This document shows, one piece after another, positions 10,336 to 30,505 of a stretch of 64,000 nt of DNA. The notes below the pieces were generated by a model. That model made no database searches. It saw only the letters and a list, made by a program, of their open reading frames with translations, and had not been told where the DNA came from. The stretch is from a virus. The stretch is taken from the IMG/VR virus record IMGVR_UViG_3300022928_000019, positions 1-64,000 of that record; one strand, 5' to 3'. Made by a program: the position numbers and the translations under genes. Within the stretch, counting starts at the first letter, position 1; each line of letters begins with the position of its first letter.

Positions 10336-13300
10336 ATGGCAAGCAGCATTATCGCTAAATATCGGGAGCATTTAGCCTCTCAAGGAAAAGACTCAACTCA
10401 AACTACCGATAAGGATCTAGCATTGGAGTTATACTCTGCACTCACTGAGCAGAAGAAGGACTTCGAGAAGTTTGCCGAGAACAGAGGTGACCCTGAGTTT
10501 GCACAACTTGTAAGAGATGCCTACGAAGAGAATAAAACCTTTAAGGGCAGTGCAGTTGATTCCATACCGGCAGAGTATTACAATCGTAAGACAGGTCTGC
10601 AGAGAGGTCTATCGGTGGGTGCAGGTGCAGTTGGGATGGACGATACTGCTAGGGACTTGATGCGAGACGCTAATCGAAACGAACGCAAAGCTAACAAGTA
10701 TCAGAAGAATATATTTAATGACATACAGATGATCGATGATCCCATCGATGGTCTTAAGTATGTGACTCAAGCTATAACAAGCACTGCAGTAAGTGTCGTA
10801 CCCGACATGGCTTTATCTCTGATTACAAGAGGAGCAGGAGGCAAGATTCAAAAGAGCCTAGAGAAAGGCGGGAAACTCAAGGATGTTCGCAAGAAACTTG
10901 AGAAGACCATGGGAGAAGGCTATGGCAAGAACATAGGTACAGTAGCAGGTGCATTTGGAACTTCTGCAGTCGAGAACACAGGTCATGTCTACGGAGACTT
11001 GTATGAGTATACCAAGCTAGATCCTAGCGATGAGAAGTATCTGTCTCCTAGTGAAGCTCGAGCATTATCAATGGTAGGTGGTGGTGCTTCTGCTACACTA
11101 GATTCCGTTCTGCCTGTATGGTTGGTGGGTAAGTTGTCTAAGAGCATTGGGGCAGATGCTGCTCAGAAGGAAGTCACCAAGATGTTTAATGGCATGCCCG
11201 AGGGTATGGTTCTATTGGCAAAGGGTACTGCTGGGGAGGGCGTGACCGAGGGTCTTCAAGAAGTTGTACAGATGCTCACAGTCAAGTATCATACTGACGA
11301 GGAGTGGTCTCCGCAGGATTGGAACAGATTGATAAATGCATCTGTCATGGGTGCAATTGGAGGTGGTGCAGTAACAGGTGGTACGGCTGCTATAGGAAGA
11401 ATGCTTGAGGCTCCTGAGACTAGACCATGGGATCCTAAGCTTGAGGAGGTGGACACAAAGAAAGAGCGTGAGGAGATAAGGAATCGCAATGCTCTAAGGA
11501 GATATGCAGACCTTGAGGTCGGTACAATTGTTAGCCCTGCAGGATCCGACAAGCTTGCCCGAGTGGTATCAAAGAATGAGGAGGATTCAACAGTAGTAGT
11601 AGAGTTCAGAGACGGACTCACTCAGCGCATGGATCCAACAAAGCTTAATGTAAAGCAGGATAAGAAAAGGGTAATTAAAGAAGAAGACCTGGAGAGCTTT
11701 TCAGATCAGAAGCTAGAGGAATTAAAAATATACTCACCGAAACTAACCTCAGCTATTGAGAAGGAGCAGGAAAGAAGAAACGTTGAGGTAGAGAAAGATA
11801 ACACACTAAAAAGATTAGACACTGCCATAGAGGTATCTGAAAAGGGCAACCAAATCATAGCTGTAGATAGCTCGAGCAAAGAGCGTATACACTCAGCAAC
11901 ATTTACCGAGGAGGATGGCTTACTTGTACTAGATAACGAGTCTAAGGATAGCGAGAACGATCAAAGGGGAGACCAGGCAAGAGAACTTATACATAAGCAA
12001 TTAAAAGCCAAAGCCAAGAAACTTGGTATGCCCTACAAGATTGGGGACGTTATCGAGTATCCACTAAGCGCTAGTGAGATTAATCAGATCGACTCAAAAG
12101 CTGATTTGCTTGTCGAGTATGGCAGACTTAGGGCTAGATACAATCTACTTGGCAGGAGGGAACCTGAGACTGAAGAGCGTTTAATCGCTCGAATGCAAGA
12201 ACTAGGCATGATTAGCCTAGACCGAAACAACAGGCCAATCCTTGGGGAGGTAGAACTAAAGAAGGGTAGTAATAGTAGGTTACTAACTACAAATCCTGAA
12301 GTTGCGAGCGTACTGTCGGGTTCAATATTTACCGACTTGGAGGCAAATCTTGTTGGCTATGAAGATACACTTAATGCCTCACAGATAAACGATAAGTTTA
12401 TTCTTAAGGAAGCAAAAGCAATGCTAGGAGATATGGCTGAGACCATTGATGGCCTTAATCATTCTGATGTTGCTAGGATTGCAGAAGGAGCGACCGAGTT
12501 ATTTAAGAAGCACTACCTCGATGAAGATGGTGGGTGGAAGGCCGGTAAGACAAGAAAGGACATCGAAGACGAAGAGGCAGAGAGGCAAGAGATTGCCTTG
12601 ATGCGTAAACAAGAGTCAAAAGATAGATTCGATTTAATCAAACCGCAAGTTGGTAACTTTGTACAAATTGCAAAGGGACAAGCTCCTCAAAAGATTACAA
12701 GTGTAGATGAGGAGAATTTTACTGTTAGAACCACAGAGGGTGGGGATAATGACATATCAGCTAGATCCATAATTAGGCAGGCCGAAGAAAGACCACTTGA
12801 GAGAAATGGTGAGTTTGTTACTGAGCTTAATAGCGGAAAGGTAAGAAAGAAGGTCGTAGTAACAGGCAGTGATACAAATGGGGAGTATCGAGGAAGGAAG
12901 TCACTAACTGTAACTTTTGAGAAGAATGGGGATATCATATCGGTTACCGATTCCGAGAATAATTACTACTCCGATGCCAAGGGACTGTCGGTTGATGATG
13001 ATGAGTTTCAATCTACCTTAGCAAGTATTACGCTCACTAAGGTTGAGCAGAAGGATCCACCAACCCCTAAACCACAGAAGGTTGCTGATAATATTTTTAG
13101 GATCGGTAACACAATCGAGGGTTCAGTGCTTCAAGTTAATGGATCCAAAAAGATTGGTAAGCATGAGTTAGTCCCAGTACTCACGGATAATACAGGTCGG
13201 GTCTCGGGCATCAAGGTTGGTGATGAAGAACTGACATTCGATGATCCTGTTCCTGCAAGTGAGTGGGTTGAGACTGCTAGGACTAAGCTTAAGGCAGAGG

Positions 13301-16300
13301 GCATGTATGGAAGACAGACCTTGAAGCCCACTCGTGTATTCAGGAAGCCAAAGAATGAGCTATTGTTTAGGAGCAGAAATGACTCCATCATAACTCCTCC
13401 AATAAATATCAAAACAGTTGAGGTGGATGAAGAGGATCCTGCGAAAGGGTTCGATGAGCTTTTAGCTGATGTAGATAAAAGCAAACTTAGTGAGAGCAAA
13501 AGCACTAAGACATTGATAGCCCTAAGGTACTTCTACCCAGGGTCTGATCAGCCAGCTATTCTTTTGAGAAGAGTAGCATCCTCTAAGGGGGATGTTGTCA
13601 TTAGGGATATGAAGCGTAAGGGCGGTAAGACTTTAGACCCCCTTACAGATACATCTAGTTATTCCATTAAGATGAATAGCGATCAATATTATGATGCGCT
13701 AGAGGGTGACGAGAGAATTGAGCCAGTAGCATTATTAGAAGTAACAGAAGAGGTTAATGTAAATACCGACTTTGATACGGAGCAGGAATTTAACTTAGCA
13801 CTAGATCCATTCTTGGATAAGTCTAAAGTAAGGCTAGACCCAATGGGTATATTGGAGGGCATCGATACTTCTATCGAGCAGACGGATGACCCCGAGGTAG
13901 AGGAAAGACTTAGACTCCAAAGGAATAGGATAGAGACCATGGTTCAGGATGAAGATGGTCAATTCAATCCACTGCTAGAAATCTTTGGGTTTGTTCCTGA
14001 TAATACAATTTCCTCATTCAAGGAAGAGATCGAAAAGAGGCTTCCGGCAATTAAGGATAAGCAATTAAAAGCAAAAGGTAGGAAGATACTTAAATCCGAT
14101 CAACTTAGGATACTTGATGTTACTGAGTTCTTGGGTGGTATTGCTGAAAAGAAAGGTTCTTGGCGAGTAGGAATAAGAGCCTTGGGTGATAATGGTGAAG
14201 AGTATCAGTCTTTAGATAAGGTTATTACCACAGCTCTAAATGAATTCTCAAAGAGAGGGTACAAGCCCCGAGCGGAAAAGGGTACAGGCACGGATGCAAT
14301 GTCTCGGGCAGTAACCTCACTGCTAGATGATGAGAGAGTTAGTGATCAGACTGGAGATAAAGGATTTAGTGACTCGGGTGACATCCAGGATGAAAATGAT
14401 ATTGAGGGCAGTCAGCTACAAGATTCTATAGAACAGTCAGAGGCAGATGAGGTCACCTTAAATGATGGCTTGGACTCATACATGGGAGATGGTGGCGATG
14501 AGCAACCCATGGTTATCAGTGATGTGGAAGAGCCTATCGATCAGATTTACGTGGAAATGGCAGAGAATGCCATCGCTAATCCGAAGGTCAGGCCTGAGGA
14601 TAAGGAGCAGATAAAGTTTTCACTTTCGGTGTACAAGAACTCTAATCCTACTGAAAGAGAATCTAAGAGAGAAGAGCTTGTTATGCTCCTAGTTGAGGCA
14701 ATTAATATGGCTAATTCTGAGTCTGTTGGTGAGATTGCAAGTACCCCTGATGTAATAGAGAGGGAGATAGCATCTTCAATAGAGAAGCCTACATCGCCTC
14801 CGCCACTAGCCCAAGAGTTGATCGAGGAGAACTCAGTCTCACTTCAGAAGTTTTTTGGTGGTGCAGTCATGGATGGCGAGCCGATACGGCTAGAGGCATA
14901 TATCAATCGAATGCTCAATACCATAGTGGGTGAGGGTTCTGTTGATTCAGATATCTTAGACATGGCTCAGCAGTTAATGTCCCATCCTTATGCCAAAGAC
15001 CTTAATGTAAAGTTTGAGTCTTGGGACAACTTCAAGAAAGGTGTCAGTTCGGACGGTAGGAATGGTAAGATCACGAGGGCATATCTGCGTGGCAACACTA
15101 TTGTTATGGGGCCATTCTATAAGCTTAAGCTAGATAGTGACTTAACTGCTGATGACCATATAAGGGTCACCTTGCTCGAGGAGATTGCCCACAGTGTTTT
15201 AGACAAGGCAGTAAATGTTGCTGTTCTCACCAATAGGCTAGGAGAGTTGCCTGCTGATGTCAGGGGAGTCATATCCAAGGAGAAGGCAGACAAGCTATAT
15301 AGAGAGACTGAAGAAATCATGTCTTGGCTCAGAACCCAAACGGATGGCAGGTACTACCAAGGGCTACTGAATAAAAAAGAGTTTTGGGCAAACTTTGCAA
15401 CTAATCCTGACTTCAGGAAATTCTTAAATCGCCCGATGCCACCTCAGTTAAGGCGTAAGTTTCAGTCTAGATTCGAGAGAGTAATAGACTGGCTCTTAGA
15501 TTTAGCTAGCAAGATTTTCGATGCCGACTTCACTAGACAAGCTTCTACCTTAGATGTTATCAGAAAAAGATACCGTACGGTATTGCGTACGGCTGATAAG
15601 TTAGCAGCAGCTGATGTTGACATATACGCTACAATGAACAGCGAGAGCAGGGGGAACATCAACTCTGACCTCGGAATAAATTACAATATACAAGATGGAA
15701 AAACCCAAGATAAAACCTTTTCGTCCCTCCCGAAAATTATTGCCACCACGGAAAACCTCAGCGGAAGAGATGGCAAAGATTCCTTCTACCGTGCCGCTGT
15801 CGATAGCGGATACGAAATCACTAGACAAAATCTTAGGAAAAAGCTCGAAGGACTCCCACAAAAAATAGGCACCGAGCATGGTGCGTACTTTGATCACGAT
15901 GCAGGTCGTGCAATCAAGGTAACTAGGATTCCTGAAAGCATGATGTCCTTCGGGCATTTTTACGATGTCGGGAGATACATTAGGGATAAGCACAATATGA
16001 ATCTCCTCTTTGGGGATGATATTCAATTTGTTGGTGTTAGCCCTAGGGAAGACGGAGATTATGCGATCATCACATCACAACCTTTAATACTAGGAAGGGA
16101 AGCTACATCTGATGAGATCATAGCAGATTTAGAGGGCAGGGGGTACAAGATAACAATGACCCCAAATTGGGAGGACAATGGGGCTACCCAGGAGATCAGT
16201 GCTATTTCCGAAGATGGAACAATTGAACTATCTGATATTGCTCCCAAGAATGTTTTAGTCGATAACGAAACTGGCGAGCTTGCTTACATAGATGTTCATG

Positions 16301-19300
16301 TTGAAGCTCCTAACGATTTAGCATCGAGGGTTGAGTCAGCAGATACGTTCGATCCTGAAGAGGCAAGTGTAGCCCAAGGTACGATCCGCGCGCATATGAC
16401 CGCACTAATGGATCTCGGTAATGTAATTTCTTCTGCTCTAACTGAGGTGGGGGAAGAGTCCTCAATGTCGGTTGAGAAAATTAAGGAATATCAGGTCGTA
16501 AAAGACGGAAGCACACCCGAGGTTATTGCTAAGGTGCTTGCGGATAAGGCAGCCTCGGTTGATGAAGTTCTAGCTCAATATAGACAAGCTCTTCCTGAGC
16601 AGTCTCAGGCTACTGCAGGCTTAGATAATATCAACAATCTTGAGTCCATAGCAAATAGAGATACTGCTGCGAGAAACCTAATGAAGTTGCTAGTAGGCAC
16701 TAGGGAGAGTGCCTCTGATCTACTAGGTTCCTCACTTAAGAATTATGAGAAATTGAACTCTAAGTTAGAGAGTTCATCAGATGCAATAGCTAGGCTTACA
16801 TCCCCTAAGACAATGTTTGATGCAAGTAAAACTCAACGCCAGTTAGCCAAGGCAATGAGGGATTCACTTTATAAGCAGAATGACTCGGGTGAAGGTTCGA
16901 AGGTTAATTCATTTGAGGCTGCATTAATAGCTGAAGGCAAAGATATAAATCTCACGGACTTTAGGAAACTGAGGGGAATGGAGATCGATGAGGGCAAGCT
17001 ATTTTCCCTGTTAGAGAAGCTGTCAGTCGGTTTTAAGGGGGTAAGGTTCATCGAGCAATTAACAGCCGAGGAAATCTTTGATGCACTTACCCCCATGAGT
17101 AATGCTCATTCTCTCGTCACTAATTCAGATCCAGATACAGAGCTAGACCAAGCAGTAAAAATTGGCATTGCCCTAATCCTTGGAAGGGATCAGAGGAACT
17201 CAGTTCCCCGCAGTGCATTTACAACAAGACTAAGGTTAGCTAAAGGAGAAGTCAGTCATGAGATAGCAGATGCAGTTAGGCTTATCAAGGATGCTGCAAA
17301 TGGTAGACCTGTCAGGGATATCAAGGATAGATCCATGAGGTCTATTATTGAAAATGTTAAAAGCATCAAGGCTGACATTGATGAATATAAAGCTGACCTT
17401 GAGAAAGTTAAGGAGGAGATACGAGTAGGAGAGATACACTTAAAGGTATACGATGAAAGAATAGCTGACCTTGACGAGTATTTTGAAACCTCTGCCCCAG
17501 TAGAACTTAGAGAAGGTGGGCAATACTCTATGCTCGAGATTGATGCCGATGGAAAACTTCAAGAAACATTATTTACATTCCGACTAGGAAATGGGGAGAG
17601 TTCCGAAGAGGCAAAATATACTGCAGCCAAGGCATCTGAACTTAACAAGATAATGCAGACGGAGTCTTACAAACAAAAGTATGGGGGGACTCCAATGGAT
17701 AGGTATTTCAAGCAACTTGTTACTGAGCTAAGAAAGCCTAATTTTGGTATTCAGTATCATACTGCTCACGTAGGGTTTCTCCATGCAATGGCTCAGTCCC
17801 TACAGGAAAGGCTGTCAAATCTTGGCCCTGCAGGAAAGCTAGCAGCCTCACTTCTAAATACATACAATAGAGACTATAATGCCGAGGTAGGAGCAATATC
17901 CTCACAAGGTAAGAAAGTATCTAAGGCAATCAAGAGGCTTCATGGGGAGATGGCAAGGGAGTCGGGCGAGAATTTAAATCAGTTCATAAAAGGTTTTGGC
18001 TCCAAGATGTTCGACTGGTTCAACGAAAGACCTGACCTACAAGGACAAGAGGAGCAAGCGATCAATAAGGTTTGGTCTGACTTAAAGAAGGAAGATCCAA
18101 CAAGGCAGTACACTGAGGAAGGTAAGCGAGCCTTGAGGGCTTACCTAAAGCAATGGGGTATACAGAACGATAACTTCAGGAGACTCTATAAGAAGTACGA
18201 CATAAAGGTTGAGGACGAGAATGTACCTCGTGGTGAACTAGCCCTAGGTGTAGATTCTCCTAACCTATTCAGAGACTTCGTTGAGCAGGGTGTTTTCACA
18301 ACCCCACGTAAACTTAATCGCACAAAAATATTTCGAGTCGTATCACTTCTAGATAGTAAGTTCGCAGAGAAGGATTACGTAGATGAGGAAAGTGATGGTA
18401 ATTTCTTCGGGAAAGCTCTTGCAAGCATGCAAGAGGCTAGGGCTTCAGGAGTAGACATGGAGGAAAGCTTTCAACAGATCTTCGGTAAGTCAGTCAGCCC
18501 TGAGTTGTCTAGTCTGTTCTTCAGTCCGATTTTCAATGGTAAGTCTGCACACAATATCCCATTTGTATTACAATCGCAGGACAACGAGGGCCGGAAGAGC
18601 AAGCGCATATTACTTCCCGAAGAACTCCAAAGAGCATGGAGAAATGCAGATGGAAACAATGAGGGTATACGAGTTGCAAATGCGATCCTTTCTTTATCCA
18701 AGATCATTCCTGGTTCTAATGAGGACACCCTATTTAATCTTGTTGGTCAGATGAAACATAGGGCAAGTGCCTTGATAAAAGTTGAAAGAGAATCTAGGCA
18801 GGAGGATACAGCAATCGATAATAATGCTGACCTAATGAGGATGCTTAAGGGTTCTGACTTTCATCATTCGATTCATGGTCGAGCATTGTACAATGTTTTG
18901 CCTGGTGAGTTCTTTGAGTACGAGATGTATGATGAGACATCTTCCTCTCAGCACTTATCAAAAATAATGATGACTGCTCACTTTGGTCGCAAGGGTGAGA
19001 AGCTTGCCGACAACTTCAAGGCAATCAAGGAGCAGTATGTGGCATCGAAGGATGCGTATGCAGATTATGCACAGGCAGCAGGCGTATCACTTAGGGGAGG
19101 AAGACCTCCATCTAGGAATATTTTCGGGTATGCTATTAAGGTTAGGAAAATAAAAGCCGAGATGGCAAACAGAGGTAAGGATCCGAATACATACTCAGAC
19201 CTAGAGACTAAAGCTAAAGCTTTTTATGAGGCTGAAAACTCTATAGCTGCAACGAGTGCTGCATTCACATCAAGGAGTTCCAACAATGCAGATCTTTCTA

Positions 19301-21234
19301 TGGGGCTTGATGCACTTAGGGCATTAGCATTCGGATTGGTTAACACCATGAAGGGTGCATGGACATCTATTATGTCTATGCCTGATATCGTAAAGAAGAT
19401 GGGTCTTAATCCTACTGCATTTAGGACTCTTGGGGGAGCAGTTAAGAACTTACCTCAAGAGATAGCAGGGTCATTCTTGGAGTCATTTGGGATAGAGATG
19501 ATTAGACCTGATAAGTACAACGAAGAACTTCGTGATATGTATGGACGCGAGCAAGGCATGCTAGGGTTCGATGAGTTTACTACCGAGATAGGTAAGGAAG
19601 GTTCACTTGGGGCAGGGCAAGGGACTTTTAGGAAAATCGTTAATGTAGTACAGGGTCTCTCTCAAGCAGGTGGAAGTATGAGATCCAAGACTAGCGTTAA
19701 CTTTATTCCAGGATCTGTACTAACGCCATTCACTGCCCCATTTAGTTATCTTGCTCAGGCAGTTAATAAATCCATTTCCTTATCCATGGCAGAGACAATA
19801 GAAAGGTTTGTCCTTAGGGCTGTTGAGGCAATGGAAACCAAGGGCATAACGATAGACAATAATACCTTTGAGGTATCTGCCAAAGACCTTGGATACGAAG
19901 ATTCCAAGCTAGACTCCTGGGTCTTCGGTAGTGTGGACATGGTGGAGAAGCTGAACCAAAGACTGACTGCTGAGGGTATGTCATTTGCTCAGCTTGCACA
20001 AGACTACAGGAGAAGAAAGGAACTAGATCCTAATGCTAAGGTTCTGAGTGTAGATGCAGTTAGGGCTTCCCAGAATATTGCTATGTCTGAGGTGACCTAT
20101 GATACTATGGCCGGTAAGCCATCGGCAGCACTATCGGGAGTTGGTCAATTTTTCTCTCCTCTCCTTAGCTGGTCGGCATCTTCCTATAGTAAGGGTCTTG
20201 ATCAGATGAGAAACAAGGAGGGTCGTCTTGCTATGAGGGAGAGTGTTAGGTATATGCTCACTGCCTCGGCATGGCTCATGCCTGTTGGTATTGCCTTCAC
20301 TATGTTTATGGATTGGTGGGATGAGGAAGTACTTGGTAAGCCGTCATCTCTTAGAAAGGTTCCACCAATAGCTATGGTTCCTGGAATAGGTACATTTATG
20401 GCAATGACTGACCCAAGGTATGATGTTGCTGCTATGCTGGAAAGGGCAGCTCGAGCAAATAATATACTTGGTCTCGGGCAAGAGTTTATAACTCCTATGT
20501 TAGTCGGGCAACTTGACCCATCTTCCTTGGGTGCAAAGTTCGATCCTACCCGAAGAGTGCTTGGTATCTCAACTGTTATGAATGCCTACGCTGTGGCAAC
20601 TAACTACTTCAACGCTATAAGGACAGGAGGAAAAGAAGAAATAGTACCAGACTATGCTACAGTTGTCAGACCATTAATGTATCTAATGGGACTCAATGCA
20701 GTAATACAAAATACCCAAGCAGCAACAAACTTAACAAGCATAGAGGATATAGAGCCAACAGGCTTCATGACCAACGAAAGGCAAGTAGCTGACATCACAG
20801 GAATGAGGAACTCATTTAGGGTATTCGCAAAAGCCATAGGCATGGAGATGAGAAGAGGAGGAATAATGCAATTCTCGGCTACTGCCATGGGAAATGCTCT
20901 CAAGAGAATGGAAAGGGCAGCCTATGCAAACGATAGGCAAGCATTTAAAGATGCCTATAGGAGGGCTATCGAGCTATCTCAATCTGATGATAAACGAAAG
21001 GATGTATCCGATAAATTCAAGAAAAGACATATTCGCAATGGTGTCACTAGGTACTCAATGAGTGATGCAGACATACAAGCTATACTATCCGTGATGGATC
21101 CTGACCAAAGGTCAAAAATCCTCACTGCAATGAGGAATCACGATTTTTATCTTAAAGCTATTGGAGGCACACCATCCAAGCCAAGAAAGGATGTAGGTCA
21201 GTATAAAGAGGCGCTTAGAAAGCTTGCGTTATGA
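10336..21234 (+). CDS. Giant polyvalent virion protein with kinase-like and metallopeptidase-like domains
   Basis: The protein has 3632 residues in one uninterrupted frame. The N-terminus (about 130-360) has Gly/Ala-rich hydrophobic helices like injected phage proteins. At about 1600-1760 a metallopeptidase-like region carries EEIAHS (residues 1615-1620), where a classical zincin has HExxH. Its first His is Glu, so activity is doubtful. At about 1775-1995 a region resembles the kinase domain of polyvalent proteins: AIKVTR, then DIAPKNVLVD and ELAYID, like a catalytic loop and metal site. Helical domains and a hydrophobic C-terminal part (near 3307) follow. I infer co-injection with DNA and action on the host. 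T7-like RNA polymerase motifs were looked for because of the N4 precedent and not found. Confidence 0.7.
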   Translation: MASSIIAKYREHLASQGKDSTQTTDKDLALELYSALTEQKKDFEKFAENRGDPEFAQLVRDAYEENKTFKGSAVDSIPAEYYNRKTGLQRGLSVGAGAVGMDDTARDLMRDANRNERKANKYQKNIFNDIQMIDDPIDGLKYVTQAITSTAVSVVPDMALSLITRGAGGKIQKSLEKGGKLKDVRKKLEKTMGEGYGKNIGTVAGAFGTSAVENTGHVYGDLYEYTKLDPSDEKYLSPSEARALSMVGGGASATLDSVLPVWLVGKLSKSIGADAAQKEVTKMFNGMPEGMVLLAKGTAGEGVTEGLQEVVQMLTVKYHTDEEWSPQDWNRLINASVMGAIGGGAVTGGTAAIGRMLEAPETRPWDPKLEEVDTKKEREEIRNRNALRRYADLEVGTIVSPAGSDKLARVVSKNEEDSTVVVEFRDGLTQRMDPTKLNVKQDKKRVIKEEDLESFSDQKLEELKIYSPKLTSAIEKEQERRNVEVEKDNTLKRLDTAIEVSEKGNQIIAVDSSSKERIHSATFTEEDGLLVLDNESKDSENDQRGDQARELIHKQLKAKAKKLGMPYKIGDVIEYPLSASEINQIDSKADLLVEYGRLRARYNLLGRREPETEERLIARMQELGMISLDRNNRPILGEVELKKGSNSRLLTTNPEVASVLSGSIFTDLEANLVGYEDTLNASQINDKFILKEAKAMLGDMAETIDGLNHSDVARIAEGATELFKKHYLDEDGGWKAGKTRKDIEDEEAERQEIALMRKQESKDRFDLIKPQVGNFVQIAKGQAPQKITSVDEENFTVRTTEGGDNDISARSIIRQAEERPLERNGEFVTELNSGKVRKKVVVTGSDTNGEYRGRKSLTVTFEKNGDIISVTDSENNYYSDAKGLSVDDDEFQSTLASITLTKVEQKDPPTPKPQKVADNIFRIGNTIEGSVLQVNGSKKIGKHELVPVLTDNTGRVSGIKVGDEELTFDDPVPASEWVETARTKLKAEGMYGRQTLKPTRVFRKPKNELLFRSRNDSIITPPINIKTVEVDEEDPAKGFDELLADVDKSKLSESKSTKTLIALRYFYPGSDQPAILLRRVASSKGDVVIRDMKRKGGKTLDPLTDTSSYSIKMNSDQYYDALEGDERIEPVALLEVTEEVNVNTDFDTEQEFNLALDPFLDKSKVRLDPMGILEGIDTSIEQTDDPEVEERLRLQRNRIETMVQDEDGQFNPLLEIFGFVPDNTISSFKEEIEKRLPAIKDKQLKAKGRKILKSDQLRILDVTEFLGGIAEKKGSWRVGIRALGDNGEEYQSLDKVITTALNEFSKRGYKPRAEKGTGTDAMSRAVTSLLDDERVSDQTGDKGFSDSGDIQDENDIEGSQLQDSIEQSEADEVTLNDGLDSYMGDGGDEQPMVISDVEEPIDQIYVEMAENAIANPKVRPEDKEQIKFSLSVYKNSNPTERESKREELVMLLVEAINMANSESVGEIASTPDVIEREIASSIEKPTSPPPLAQELIEENSVSLQKFFGGAVMDGEPIRLEAYINRMLNTIVGEGSVDSDILDMAQQLMSHPYAKDLNVKFESWDNFKKGVSSDGRNGKITRAYLRGNTIVMGPFYKLKLDSDLTADDHIRVTLLEEIAHSVLDKAVNVAVLTNRLGELPADVRGVISKEKADKLYRETEEIMSWLRTQTDGRYYQGLLNKKEFWANFATNPDFRKFLNRPMPPQLRRKFQSRFERVIDWLLDLASKIFDADFTRQASTLDVIRKRYRTVLRTADKLAAADVDIYATMNSESRGNINSDLGINYNIQDGKTQDKTFSSLPKIIATTENLSGRDGKDSFYRAAVDSGYEITRQNLRKKLEGLPQKIGTEHGAYFDHDAGRAIKVTRIPESMMSFGHFYDVGRYIRDKHNMNLLFGDDIQFVGVSPREDGDYAIITSQPLILGREATSDEIIADLEGRGYKITMTPNWEDNGATQEISAISEDGTIELSDIAPKNVLVDNETGELAYIDVHVEAPNDLASRVESADTFDPEEASVAQGTIRAHMTALMDLGNVISSALTEVGEESSMSVEKIKEYQVVKDGSTPEVIAKVLADKAASVDEVLAQYRQALPEQSQATAGLDNINNLESIANRDTAARNLMKLLVGTRESASDLLGSSLKNYEKLNSKLESSSDAIARLTSPKTMFDASKTQRQLAKAMRDSLYKQNDSGEGSKVNSFEAALIAEGKDINLTDFRKLRGMEIDEGKLFSLLEKLSVGFKGVRFIEQLTAEEIFDALTPMSNAHSLVTNSDPDTELDQAVKIGIALILGRDQRNSVPRSAFTTRLRLAKGEVSHEIADAVRLIKDAANGRPVRDIKDRSMRSIIENVKSIKADIDEYKADLEKVKEEIRVGEIHLKVYDERIADLDEYFETSAPVELREGGQYSMLEIDADGKLQETLFTFRLGNGESSEEAKYTAAKASELNKIMQTESYKQKYGGTPMDRYFKQLVTELRKPNFGIQYHTAHVGFLHAMAQSLQERLSNLGPAGKLAASLLNTYNRDYNAEVGAISSQGKKVSKAIKRLHGEMARESGENLNQFIKGFGSKMFDWFNERPDLQGQEEQAINKVWSDLKKEDPTRQYTEEGKRALRAYLKQWGIQNDNFRRLYKKYDIKVEDENVPRGELALGVDSPNLFRDFVEQGVFTTPRKLNRTKIFRVVSLLDSKFAEKDYVDEESDGNFFGKALASMQEARASGVDMEESFQQIFGKSVSPELSSLFFSPIFNGKSAHNIPFVLQSQDNEGRKSKRILLPEELQRAWRNADGNNEGIRVANAILSLSKIIPGSNEDTLFNLVGQMKHRASALIKVERESRQEDTAIDNNADLMRMLKGSDFHHSIHGRALYNVLPGEFFEYEMYDETSSSQHLSKIMMTAHFGRKGEKLADNFKAIKEQYVASKDAYADYAQAAGVSLRGGRPPSRNIFGYAIKVRKIKAEMANRGKDPNTYSDLETKAKAFYEAENSIAATSAAFTSRSSNNADLSMGLDALRALAFGLVNTMKGAWTSIMSMPDIVKKMGLNPTAFRTLGGAVKNLPQEIAGSFLESFGIEMIRPDKYNEELRDMYGREQGMLGFDEFTTEIGKEGSLGAGQGTFRKIVNVVQGLSQAGGSMRSKTSVNFIPGSVLTPFTAPFSYLAQAVNKSISLSMAETIERFVLRAVEAMETKGITIDNNTFEVSAKDLGYEDSKLDSWVFGSVDMVEKLNQRLTAEGMSFAQLAQDYRRRKELDPNAKVLSVDAVRASQNIAMSEVTYDTMAGKPSAALSGVGQFFSPLLSWSASSYSKGLDQMRNKEGRLAMRESVRYMLTASAWLMPVGIAFTMFMDWWDEEVLGKPSSLRKVPPIAMVPGIGTFMAMTDPRYDVAAMLERAARANNILGLGQEFITPMLVGQLDPSSLGAKFDPTRRVLGISTVMNAYAVATNYFNAIRTGGKEEIVPDYATVVRPLMYLMGLNAVIQNTQAATNLTSIEDIEPTGFMTNERQVADITGMRNSFRVFAKAIGMEMRRGGIMQFSATAMGNALKRMERAAYANDRQAFKDAYRRAIELSQSDDKRKDVSDKFKKRHIRNGVTRYSMSDADIQAILSVMDPDQRSKILTAMRNHDFYLKAIGGTPSKPRKDVGQYKEALRKLAL

Positions 21235-28268: not shown

Positions 28269-28517
28269 CTAGGTTACTTTCTTGTGAAGAGCGTAACCCA
28301 TGCAATTCTTATTCGAGTCCCACACTAGAAACATTTGCCCCTGCTGTAGTGCGACAGTCGTCAGAGGTATTAACTCCTGAGGAAGATGTAGACTATTAAA
28401 CCTTAGTGCTATGTCCTCGGCTAAATCACCATCTTGCTTGACGGACTCTGTTTCAAACACCTCATATGCTTTATCAATATTAAACGGAGGTGGTTTAAAT
28501 TTTTCTAGCCTACTCAT
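28269..28517 (-). CDS. Small protein, unknown
   Basis: The 82-residue soluble protein has an ATG that overlaps the upstream stop (ATGA). It contains HLPQELIPLTTVALQQGQMF and a C-terminal LHKK. No motif was recognised. It is co-translated with the acidic protein upstream and ends 17 bases before the structured RNA candidate begins. Confidence 0.5.
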   Translation of the reverse strand: MSRLEKFKPPPFNIDKAYEVFETESVKQDGDLAEDIALRFNSLHLPQELIPLTTVALQQGQMFLVWDSNKNCMGYALHKKVT

Positions 28518-29011
28518 GATATAGCCTTATTAAGTATCCTTGCCAACTCATCCTTTACTATAAAGCGTACACGATCTTCTGTCAGATTATTGTTAAGAAG
28601 AGTAGCAATGGCATTGAGCCTAGGGTCAGGTCTCGGGCTATTGCGCTGCCTTGGAGGCTGCGGTGGGGTATCCTCATCCTCATCCTCATCCTCGTCCTCT
28701 TCCTCGTCCTCTTCCTCCCAAACTGCCTCGATTGAGTCACGACTTATGTTTGGTTCTGCTAGTTTTGCAATGGGTACTAGCATCTTGTAGATCTTTTGCT
28801 TGGTTGAGTGGATCTCGTCATCCCTCATGTCCTCATCCTCAGCCCAGTCATCACCGAAGAAGCTCTTTAATAGTTCTCCCTCGTCTAATACCACTGACTG
28901 AAGTGAGTCACAGTCGGCATCAACGTTTTCTTGAAGCCATTGGTTAACCGCATCCCTAGCATTAGGGTTAGCGCGTTGTAGTTTTAATATTTCTTTGTAG
29001 TAGTCACTCAT
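28514..29011 (-). CDS. Acidic helical protein with Glu/Asp run
   Basis: The 165-residue protein has a helical N-terminus with Asp/Glu-rich segments. An 18-residue Glu/Asp run (about 101-118, EEEDEEEDEDEDED) is followed by a Pro/Arg-rich hinge and a C-terminal helix (VRFIVKDELARILNKAI). The repeated GAGGAC codons are a slippage-prone microsatellite. It starts three bases after a 22-bp element. A role as DNA mimic or scaffold is possible from the charge alone, but nothing else supports it. Confidence 0.5.
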   Translation of the reverse strand: MSDYYKEILKLQRANPNARDAVNQWLQENVDADCDSLQSVVLDEGELLKSFFGDDWAEDEDMRDDEIHSTKQKIYKMLVPIAKLAEPNISRDSIEAVWEEEDEEEDEDEDEDEDTPPQPPRQRNSPRPDPRLNAIATLLNNNLTEDRVRFIVKDELARILNKAIS

Positions 29012-29014
29012 GAT

Positions 29015-29036
29015 GTAATACAGGTATATAGGTTAC
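29015..29036 (-). promoter_or_regulatory. 22-bp element upstream of acidic protein gene
   Basis: On the minus strand the left half is GTAACCTA and the right half is TGTATTAC. It is three bases before the ATG at 29011. The methyltransferase stop codon falls inside it. Confidence 0.6.
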
Positions 29037-30505
29037 ATTATAAAATGTGCAAACAAAATTCTGTATGCACGTTCAGCTTGGGTTGGCACAATGCCATTAC
29101 CCAAAAGTCTTAGTCTTGGAACTCGCTGAGCCATGACTTCGGGAGAAGCGTAGTATTCTTTGGTAGTCCCATCAGGGATTCTACCCATGTAGGGTTGAGC
29201 TTCCCCGACTGTGAAAGAAGAGCTAGGTCTCTGCCCAAGCATTTCTGATTGGATTCCACTGATGTCCTCGCTCCCTCCACATGATCCGATGCTTGAGGGG
29301 TTCCCCATGTGCTGGCTACCTTCCGCCCCAATGTCTCCTGGGATCCCTCGGGTACTGTCCCCATGGTATCCTTCCAATCCCTCGACATTGGAGTCGGCCA
29401 CTTCTGCATTGTCTCCACTGCATCTCTCAGCTTGGGAGTCCACTTCTCCCCCTTGGCATTCGTCCGAATGAATCGTCCGTTCTCTAGGGTCACATTCGGT
29501 GCTAGTCCTCCCTCGGCATCGACTGTCCTCGGTGTGGGATACATTATCTCGGGGTTCATCTCGGGGTTCACTACATCCTCCCTCAGATTCTTGCACCCTC
29601 CCTTCTTCTTGTTCCGAGCTAGTGCTTCCCCTGTCTTCGGTGGGAGTACATCCATCGTGTTGGGAGTTGCCCAACTCTTCAGTGCCACTGCTGACAGACT
29701 CGGACTCTGCCTGTTCTTCTCCGACTCGGGAGTTCCGTCCGTCTTCCCTGTCCTCGGGGTAGGCCATGATGACTCTTGGTTCTTCCCATCCGTACTGAGC
29801 TTCCCCTGGACGTGAAGGCCATGTACCTGCTCGCCAAGGTTGCTTTTCCCCCGATCCGTCATGCAAGCTCGGGAGTCTTGCTCTTTCGGAGTCCCCCAAC
29901 CTTCGTTCAATTTCAGTGTCAGGGTTTGTGTTACGGAAGAGCATGAAGACTCGCTTACGTTGGTGAGGCGCGCCTTCTTCACTCGCACTGACCAATGTGA
30001 ACGCACCCTCGTAACCAATTTTTTCCATGTATCCCATGACATATTTGAGAACGCTTGTGTCCTGCTCGCCACCGAACTTACAACTGATGATCCCTTCGAC
30101 ATTTTCGAGGGCAACCCAGTTTGGTCGGCAAAGCTGAACTCCGTCTGCAATGAAGGGGAACAAGTGCCTTGGGTCTTCAGTTCCCTTCCGAATGCCTGAC
30201 GATGAGAAGGGTTGGCAAGGGAATCCCGCAGATAAGATGTCCACGCATCCACGGAACTTTCCGTATGGGAACTCTTTAACATCCGTAAAGATAGGTGCTT
30301 CAGAAAGTTCACCCTCTTCAATCTTCGCAACCAAGTTGGCGCAAGCGTATCCTTCCCGTTCCACGTATGCGATTTCTCGCAAGTTTGGGAATAGTCCTCG
30401 AAGTCCTCTCCCCATCCCTTCATATCCACTGCACATAGAGAGGTGAGTGACGACGTTCTCGGTAAGTATACCCTGTAATTGTTCTTCTTCATAATCTAGA
30501 TTCAT
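29033..30505 (-). CDS. dcm: C5 cytosine DNA methyltransferase
   Basis: The start is the ATG at 30505, one base after a 22-bp element (490 residues); a longer frame reaches 30565. In order: motif I HLSMCSGYEGMG, motif IV ILSAGFPCQPFSSSG with the catalytic Cys, motif VI ALENVEG, motif VIII PHQRKRVF, and motif IX/X LRLLGNGIVPTQ near the end. It should methylate cytosine C5 from S-adenosylmethionine. Between motifs VIII and X lie about 260 hydrophilic residues with repeats such as LGNS, VADS and MGNP, in place of a normal target recognition domain. That stretch is also read in another frame (see next entry). It may protect phage DNA from host restriction. Confidence 0.85.
   Translation of the reverse strand: MNLDYEEEQLQGILTENVVTHLSMCSGYEGMGRGLRGLFPNLREIAYVEREGYACANLVAKIEEGELSEAPIFTDVKEFPYGKFRGCVDILSAGFPCQPFSSSGIRKGTEDPRHLFPFIADGVQLCRPNWVALENVEGIISCKFGGEQDTSVLKYVMGYMEKIGYEGAFTLVSASEEGAPHQRKRVFMLFRNTNPDTEIERRLGDSERARLPSLHDGSGEKQPWRAGTWPSRPGEAQYGWEEPRVIMAYPEDREDGRNSRVGEEQAESESVSSGTEELGNSQHDGCTPTEDRGSTSSEQEEGRVQESEGGCSEPRDEPRDNVSHTEDSRCRGRTSTECDPRERTIHSDECQGGEVDSQAERCSGDNAEVADSNVEGLEGYHGDSTRGIPGDIGAEGSQHMGNPSSIGSCGGSEDISGIQSEMLGQRPSSSFTVGEAQPYMGRIPDGTTKEYYASPEVMAQRVPRLRLLGNGIVPTQAERAYRILFAHFIM
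29110..30492 (-). CDS. WPTP-repeat protein encoded in alternate frame inside the methyltransferase gene
   Basis: The 460-codon frame lies on the same strand, offset by one register, and starts at an ATG 13 bases after the methyltransferase ATG. It carries regularly spaced W-x-T-P motifs: GWGTPKEQD, SWPTPRTG, SWATPNTMD, MYPTPRTVD, KWPTPMSRD and TWGTPQASD. It ends with KLNPTWVESLMGLP. I recall proteins with WPTP repeats and an LNPxWVEWLMGxP end in many phages. Each WxTP in this frame is the LGNS/VADS repeat of the methyltransferase frame. Independent expression is inferred, not shown; a frameshift fusion is an alternative. Function is unknown. Confidence 0.6.
   Translation of the reverse strand: MKKNNYRVYLPRTSSLTSLCAVDMKGWGEDFEDYSQTCEKSHTWNGKDTLAPTWLRRLKRVNFLKHLSLRMLKSSHTESSVDAWTSYLRDSLANPSHRQAFGRELKTQGTCSPSLQTEFSFADQTGLPSKMSKGSSVVSSVASRTQAFSNMSWDTWKKLVTRVRSHWSVRVKKARLTNVSESSCSSVTQTLTLKLNEGWGTPKEQDSRACMTDRGKSNLGEQVHGLHVQGKLSTDGKNQESSWPTPRTGKTDGTPESEKNRQSPSLSAVALKSWATPNTMDVLPPKTGEALARNKKKGGCKNLREDVVNPEMNPEIMYPTPRTVDAEGGLAPNVTLENGRFIRTNAKGEKWTPKLRDAVETMQKWPTPMSRDWKDTMGTVPEGSQETLGRKVASTWGTPQASDHVEGARTSVESNQKCLGRDLALLSQSGKLNPTWVESLMGLPKNTTLLPKSWLSEFQD

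Follow-up and report, generated by a model that had tools for sequence, protein, structure and literature searches.

A C5-cytosine DNA methyltransferase divided between two polypeptides is quite probably encoded at a single locus of a virus contig, in overlapping reading frames on one strand. The first polypeptide, referred to here as alpha, would provide motifs I-VIII and X, and the second, beta, the target-recognition array and motif IX. The contig, that of a bacterial virus, is 72.9 kb in length, and among its genes are those for a portal-like protein, an integrase, and a helicase. The first 64,000 nucleotides of it, which were analyzed in this study, are referred to as the window.

Results

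Architecture of the locus

The gene for alpha, in frame A, lies on the minus strand, as do all features described below unless otherwise indicated. It begins with an ATG at position 30505 and its stop codon ends at 29033, corresponding to a C5-cytosine DNA methyltransferase of 490 residues (490 codons). Frame B, which is displaced by +1 from frame A, begins with an ATG at 30492, 13 bases from that of frame A, and its stop codon ends at 29110. It encodes beta, a 460-residue WxTP protein overprinted on alpha. Two overlapping open reading frames at 29110-30505 with start codons 13 bases apart had been reported in an initial annotation of the sequence, and those coordinates are correct. In the +1 arrangement, the first, second, and third codon positions of frame A (A1, A2, and A3) coincide with the third, first, and second positions of frame B, respectively.

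The hallmarks of the C5 methyltransferases, namely motifs I, IV, VI, VIII, and X, are all found in frame A. Motif I (HLSMCSGYEGMG) is located at 30410-30445, motif IV with the catalytic cysteine of its PCQ sequence (GFPCQPFS) at 30203-30226, and motif VI (ENVEG, with the characteristic ENV) at 30092-30106. Motif VIII (HQRKRVF, 29945-29965) is the final portion of alpha ahead of the WxTP array of beta. From there, alpha continues through the beta-coding region as a long linker that leads to motif X and the C-terminus (RVPRLRLLGNGIVP..., 29036-29125), nearly all of which lies past the end of beta. Within the linker there is an island, WPSRPGEAQYGWEEPR (29774-29821), that is conserved in frame A and overlaps GKLSTDGKNQES of beta. 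The N-terminal part of alpha matches the Pfam family PF00145 with an E-value of 1e-27, and its closest relative in the PDB is M.HhaI (E-value of 6e-11).

Residues 1 to 178 of beta (29959-30492) are overprinted on motifs I-VIII and are predicted to be helical. An array of six WxTP modules, which are candidate target-recognition cassettes, extends from 29898 to 29200 with the individual modules starting at WGTP 29898, WPTP 29766, WATP 29673, YPTP 29541, WPTP 29400, and WGTP 29307. The array is followed by LNPTWVESLMGLP (29161-29199), a motif IX-like segment that is near-invariant in beta and has a pattern like that of LTPRECARLMGF in Dcm. This segment occurs only in frame B, and so it is not in the same chain as motifs I-VIII; similarly, the WxTP modules belong to frame B and the catalytic motifs to frame A. 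The repeats of alpha noted in the initial annotation do indeed share their DNA with the WxTP motifs, with LGDS (29888-29899) paired with WGTP, LGNS (29663-29674) with WATP, VADS (29390-29401) with WPTP, and MGNP (29297-29308) with WGTP.

Adjoining the methyltransferase gene is an open reading frame of 165 codons (28514-29011) whose product contains an alternating Glu/Asp run (EEEDEEEDEDEDEDED). The largest gene in the window is a single open reading frame on the plus strand (10336-21234), which encodes 3,632 residues.

Translational starts

In 76 of 119 loci, there is a start near the sequence [AG]TGTGGAT, where the ATG of beta (MWI[LI]PK...) contains the GTG of alpha nested two bases inside (ATGTG). 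The GTG lies in the frame of alpha in all 68 loci that were checked in register, and a Shine-Dalgarno-like core is found upstream of the nested start in 40 of these 68, compared to a mean of 14.5 for shuffled sequences. In the window itself, neither the ATGTG start nor an obvious Shine-Dalgarno sequence is present. An internal start directly before the first WxTP motif was considered and rejected, given that most loci have no start codon at that point. An ATG occurs there in L005, L090, L091, and L093, which are close relatives, and the corresponding codon in the window is CTG.

Openness of frame B

When the protein encoded by frame A was held fixed and phage codon usage was applied, 20,000 simulations led to a mean of 15.7 stops in frame B and a minimum of five, whereas none is observed. 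Likewise, fixing the protein of frame B over the variable region predicts 23.5 stops in frame A, where none is observed. For comparison, the +1 frames of eleven further large genes of the window contain one stop per 15.4 codons, and the longest open run is 122 codons. The overlap of frame B is beyond chance.

A sample of 74 relatives was obtained solely via the N-terminal half of frame A. In the first half of these genes, 16 stops are observed in frame B versus 228 expected from synonymous shuffling, and in the third frame, which served as a control, 592 versus 644; note that the sequences are related and not independent, such that the counts across loci, here and below, are descriptive. There are no frame B stops in this half in 63 of the 74 loci. 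After motif VIII, the first frame B stop falls within the last ∼31 codons in all 74, and past motif IX wherever that motif was recognized. Frame B is open in all of the close relatives. The initial annotation had named homologous methylases with a WPTP frame broken by stops as evidence that would speak against its proposal, and in the 74 loci fetched through frame A this test did not refute it. Codon bias as the cause of this openness is ruled out by the synonymous shuffles with their third-frame control.

Selection on the two frames

A comparison of the window with a relative of 86% identity reveals 26, 10, and 35 changes at A1, A2, and A3, respectively, for A codons 1 to 210. Across codons 211 to 450, the variable region, the corresponding values are 69, 18, and 7 (A1 versus A3, p = 6e-14), and for the final 40 codons of frame A they are 3, 3, and 6. 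A four-genome comparison agrees with this pattern, and the third positions of frame A vary again in motif X. These phase counts identify frame B as the product under selection in the variable region of the methylase, with frame A selected at both ends.

In a half-length subfamily (L037-L058 and relatives), frame B is closed upstream, and the controlling frame switches at motif VI. The differences at fourfold degenerate sites are 0.255 where frame B is closed, 0.088 where both frames are open, 0.008 in the variable region, and 0.235 in motif X. The A3 positions are free to vary up to motif VI, fall to about 0.01-0.12 between motifs VI and VIII where both frames run, drop to near zero across the variable region, in which A1 is variable, and rise again in motif X. 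For the full-length subfamily, which includes the window, the fourfold differences are 0.23 and 0.20 under beta (motifs I-VIII) versus 0.54 in motif X past the end of beta.

Additional evidence is provided by 39 conserved fourfold degenerate columns in 89 loci, for which the third-base entropy is 1.13 as compared to 1.72 when pooled. The preferred base differs by column, as exemplified by A26 (GCT in 73 of 77) and A154 (GCG in 82 of 89). Codon bias cannot give rise to column-specific third bases, and the N-terminal residues of beta are therefore constrained in their own right.

As judged from these substitution patterns, frame B is a genuine protein, and both frames are under protein-level selection. 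The phase, fourfold, stop-avoidance, and column tests agree on this point, as the initial annotation had proposed. Its further suggestion that frame B constrains the target region of the methylase is, however, the reverse of what is seen: selection in that region acts on frame B, and the LGNS- and VADS-type repeats of alpha are by the same substitution evidence mostly a passenger reading of it, alpha being the relaxed frame.

Alternative architectures

Motif X is located in frame A in 78 loci, in which that frame is open from motif VIII to motif X with zero stops. Beta carries motif X in L080 and L149, where frame A has 10 and 9 stops, respectively, before motif IX of beta. A third architecture is observed in L017, L059, L110, and L118, where an open reading frame for motifs I-VIII is followed by a separate downstream one in the same frame (WPxRPG...X) that carries motif X. 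Beta spans both, and frame A contains 9-34 stops. In the sister loci L049, L191, L224, and L248, alpha stops directly after motif VIII. In these loci, and in mycobacteriophage LHTSCC (gp81/gp80), alpha carries motifs I-VIII and beta carries WxTP-IX-X.

Bacterial genomes from many phyla were retrieved with the pattern LNPxWVExLM. Frame A carries motif X in 70 of 80; for the five with motif X in beta, frame A is open for only 8-152 codons. The overlapping frame with LNPxWVExLM (L175-L254) occurs in genomes of the Bacillota, Bacteroidota, Pseudomonadota, Verrucomicrobiota, Spirochaetota, and others. The linker island, WPxRPGxxQYxWExPR, is detected by regular expression in 48 of 119 loci and is kept in the separate downstream open reading frame where alpha is split. 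Judging from the pattern of stops across the architectures, the linker of alpha, apart from the conserved island, stays open chiefly so that motif X can be reached. Among the sequences compared, the overlapping arrangement apparently recurs in hundreds of related viruses and bacteria.

The WxTP modules

Between zero and eight WxTP modules were recognized per array. The most frequent type (WATPNTMD...NLREQV) is present in 39 loci, where its place in the array ranges from 0 to 5, and the positions of other types vary in a similar way. In L090 and L091, close relatives of the window, there is one extra module and one is replaced. The six tandem modules of the window, positioned between motifs VIII and IX, are exchangeable in that the same types are found at other array positions elsewhere. 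The distribution of types indicates that the modules are shuffled between phages in the manner of target-recognition cassettes and, by analogy, they may recognize DNA.

Relationship of beta to methyltransferase families

Frame B of the window matches phrog_1008, annotated as a DNA methyltransferase, with an E-value of 2e-12, and motif X of frame A matches the end of this same family. Those beta proteins that bear motif X match phrog_1008 strongly, and all of the beta proteins tested match it. With respect to phrog_116, frame A aligns with positions 198-410 and the mycobacteriophage LHTSCC gp80 protein (WxTP-IX-X) with positions 409-489. The LNPxWVExLMGxP segment occupies the expected site of motif IX, resembles the Dcm sequence given above, and precedes motif X in the sister proteins; a match to phrog_363 is in keeping with this. 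An alignment of the IX-X segment with Dcm by hhalign is in register, but at a probability of only 16%. Profile searches with beta against the PDB, Pfam, and NCBIfam returned no informative match. Given its order, pattern, and complementarity to alpha, LNPxWVExLMG is best described as motif IX-like.

In an AlphaFold2 model of an A/B fusion, the catalytic domain has pLDDT values above 90, and most of the WxTP region falls below 50 and is not convincingly docked. Alignment of this model with C5 methyltransferases is by way of the catalytic domain, and the placement of the frame B part is unreliable. The model of beta is of low confidence overall, with N-terminal helices of which residues 153 to 177 have values near 90, and a Foldseek search with it gave no significant match. 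In contrast to the other modules, the one at residues 318 to 362 of beta (29407-29541; YPTPRTVDAEGG...KLRDAVETM) is predicted with high confidence by two separate AlphaFold2 models to form a hairpin and a helix.

Discussion

Proposed model and alternatives

In the model that we favor, alpha would build the catalytic domain from motifs I-VIII, a mostly non-functional linker, and motif X, which returns to that domain. Beta would supply the small DNA-recognizing domain, with its six WxTP target-recognition modules followed by motif IX, and its N-terminal region, itself constrained, would be read from the DNA for the catalytic domain of alpha. Both chains would be translated from neighboring starts, in most relatives from the ATG of beta and the nested GTG of alpha. 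Upon assembly, the enzyme would methylate the phage DNA at several targets and protect it against restriction. We infer in this regard that beta is translated and binds to alpha, that its modules recognize DNA, and that the role is one of anti-restriction. The locus may have originated from a single-chain enzyme whose A-B-A reading path was broken by two compensating frameshifts, one after motif VIII and the other between motifs IX and X.

The products of the locus can be envisioned in other ways. A programmed +1 frameshift after motif VIII, of the kind raised in the initial annotation, would fuse motifs I-VIII of frame A to WxTP-IX of frame B in a single-chain enzyme, with unshifted ribosomes yielding the frame A product. 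The array of frame B does start directly after motif VIII, near-cognate in-frame starts just upstream are rare, and the fused path has the natural motif order of the single-chain enzymes. This explanation is nevertheless unlikely. Frame B possesses a conserved start of its own, and residues under constraint lie ahead of any point at which a shift would be useful; a frameshift at the VIII/WxTP junction was rejected as the main model for this reason. In addition, frame B is open throughout the gene in 63 of the 74 loci, alpha in the sister loci simply ends while beta begins upstream and overlaps it, and a fusion in the window would be without motif X. Alternatively, beta might be an unrelated overprinted protein, for example anti-restriction or regulatory, and alpha a complete enzyme with the VADS-repeat region as its target-recognition domain (TRD). 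The extra N-terminal region of beta, constrained and predicted to be helical, would accord with this, as would the assignment of the TRD of M.EcoHK31I to alpha by its authors, as cited in PMC3404938. This is quite unlikely, however, since the variable region of frame A is the relaxed frame, since alpha is lost after motif VIII in those loci with motif X in beta while beta keeps WxTP-IX-X, and since phrog_1008 and phrog_116 bring WxTP, IX, and X together within a single family of methyltransferases.

Finally, frame B might be untranslated, its openness and conservation resulting from codon bias, composition, or an RNA or DNA element. Compact genomes can contain long alternative frames, but the avoidance of stops is specific to frame B and absent in the third frame, the substitutions track the codon periodicity of frame B, and both the column-specific third-base preferences and the simulations argue against such an origin. 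An untranslated frame B is very improbable and strongly disfavored.

Returning to the two-polypeptide enzyme, there is perhaps an even chance that a more far-reaching description holds. The whole 1.38 kb would then be true dual coding, with the ∼178 N-terminal residues of beta forming a second functional domain. The array would be a library of shuffling cassettes, specificity being changed by recombination of frame B while frame A merely stays open, and the arrangement would be among the commonest forms of phage C5 methyltransferases, overlooked because annotation gives one frame.

Two phages are relevant here. In Streptomyces phage phiBT1 (L256:2007-2611), the methylase is annotated to after motif VIII with the remark that it "may be inactive", and the +1 frame that follows contains an unannotated WxTP, IX, and X half. 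In Gordonia phage GordDuk1 (L255:2031-2400), the methylase is again annotated to after motif VIII, and WxTP-IX-X in the +1 frame is unannotated or misannotated. It is probable that the WxTP-IX-X protein is the missing subunit in both. The annotation of C75C1 is likewise in frame A only. If the model is true, public annotation misses the second subunit, and methylome or restriction studies in which the annotated frame alone is expressed would find nothing.

To our knowledge, few cases exist of a very long overlap on one strand whose two products are parts of the same enzyme, and the argument for them usually comes from a single genome. In the present case, which frame matters where can be read from hundreds of natural variants, some with the overlap released, and the locus family provides a readable array of candidate DNA-recognition modules.

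Comparison with known systems

A search of the open-access literature revealed no paper on WPTP proteins or on this overlap. In M.EcoHK31I, the small gene is inside the large one in another frame. According to PMC3404938, motif IX of this enzyme, which is specific for YGGCCR, is carried by the smaller subunit and motifs I-VIII and X by the larger; its authors are cited there as having predicted the TRD in alpha. The window is similar in that alpha has motifs I-VIII and X, and its second polypeptide carries a candidate for motif IX. It differs in that beta overlaps 460 of the 490 codons and has both a WxTP array and a constrained N-terminus. A further difference from the cited prediction is that selection in the window would place target recognition in beta, the variable region of alpha being the relaxed frame.

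For M.AquI (CYCGRG), the same paper describes two chains split in the variable region, the smaller having motifs IX and X (PMC3404938). In contrast, motif X of the window belongs to alpha, and the overlap between the two genes is nearly complete; it is the sister loci, rather than the window, that resemble M.AquI in having motifs IX and X in the second polypeptide. The multispecific C5 methyltransferases of the Bacillus phage SPbeta type have a target-recognition array between motifs VIII and IX and exchange their modules (PMC12707154). The window likewise has an array of modules that are exchanged, with a putative cassette role, but whereas the SPbeta-type enzymes are single chains, the array here is in a second polypeptide and a second frame. 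Members of phrog_1008 such as LHTSCC gp80 have WxTP, IX, and X in one chain and are matched by frame B of the window, although those that were checked have the short, slightly overlapping arrangement and not full-length overprinting. What is new here relative to the known split enzymes is the full-length overprinting, the nested starts, the constrained N-terminal region of beta, and the shuffling array.
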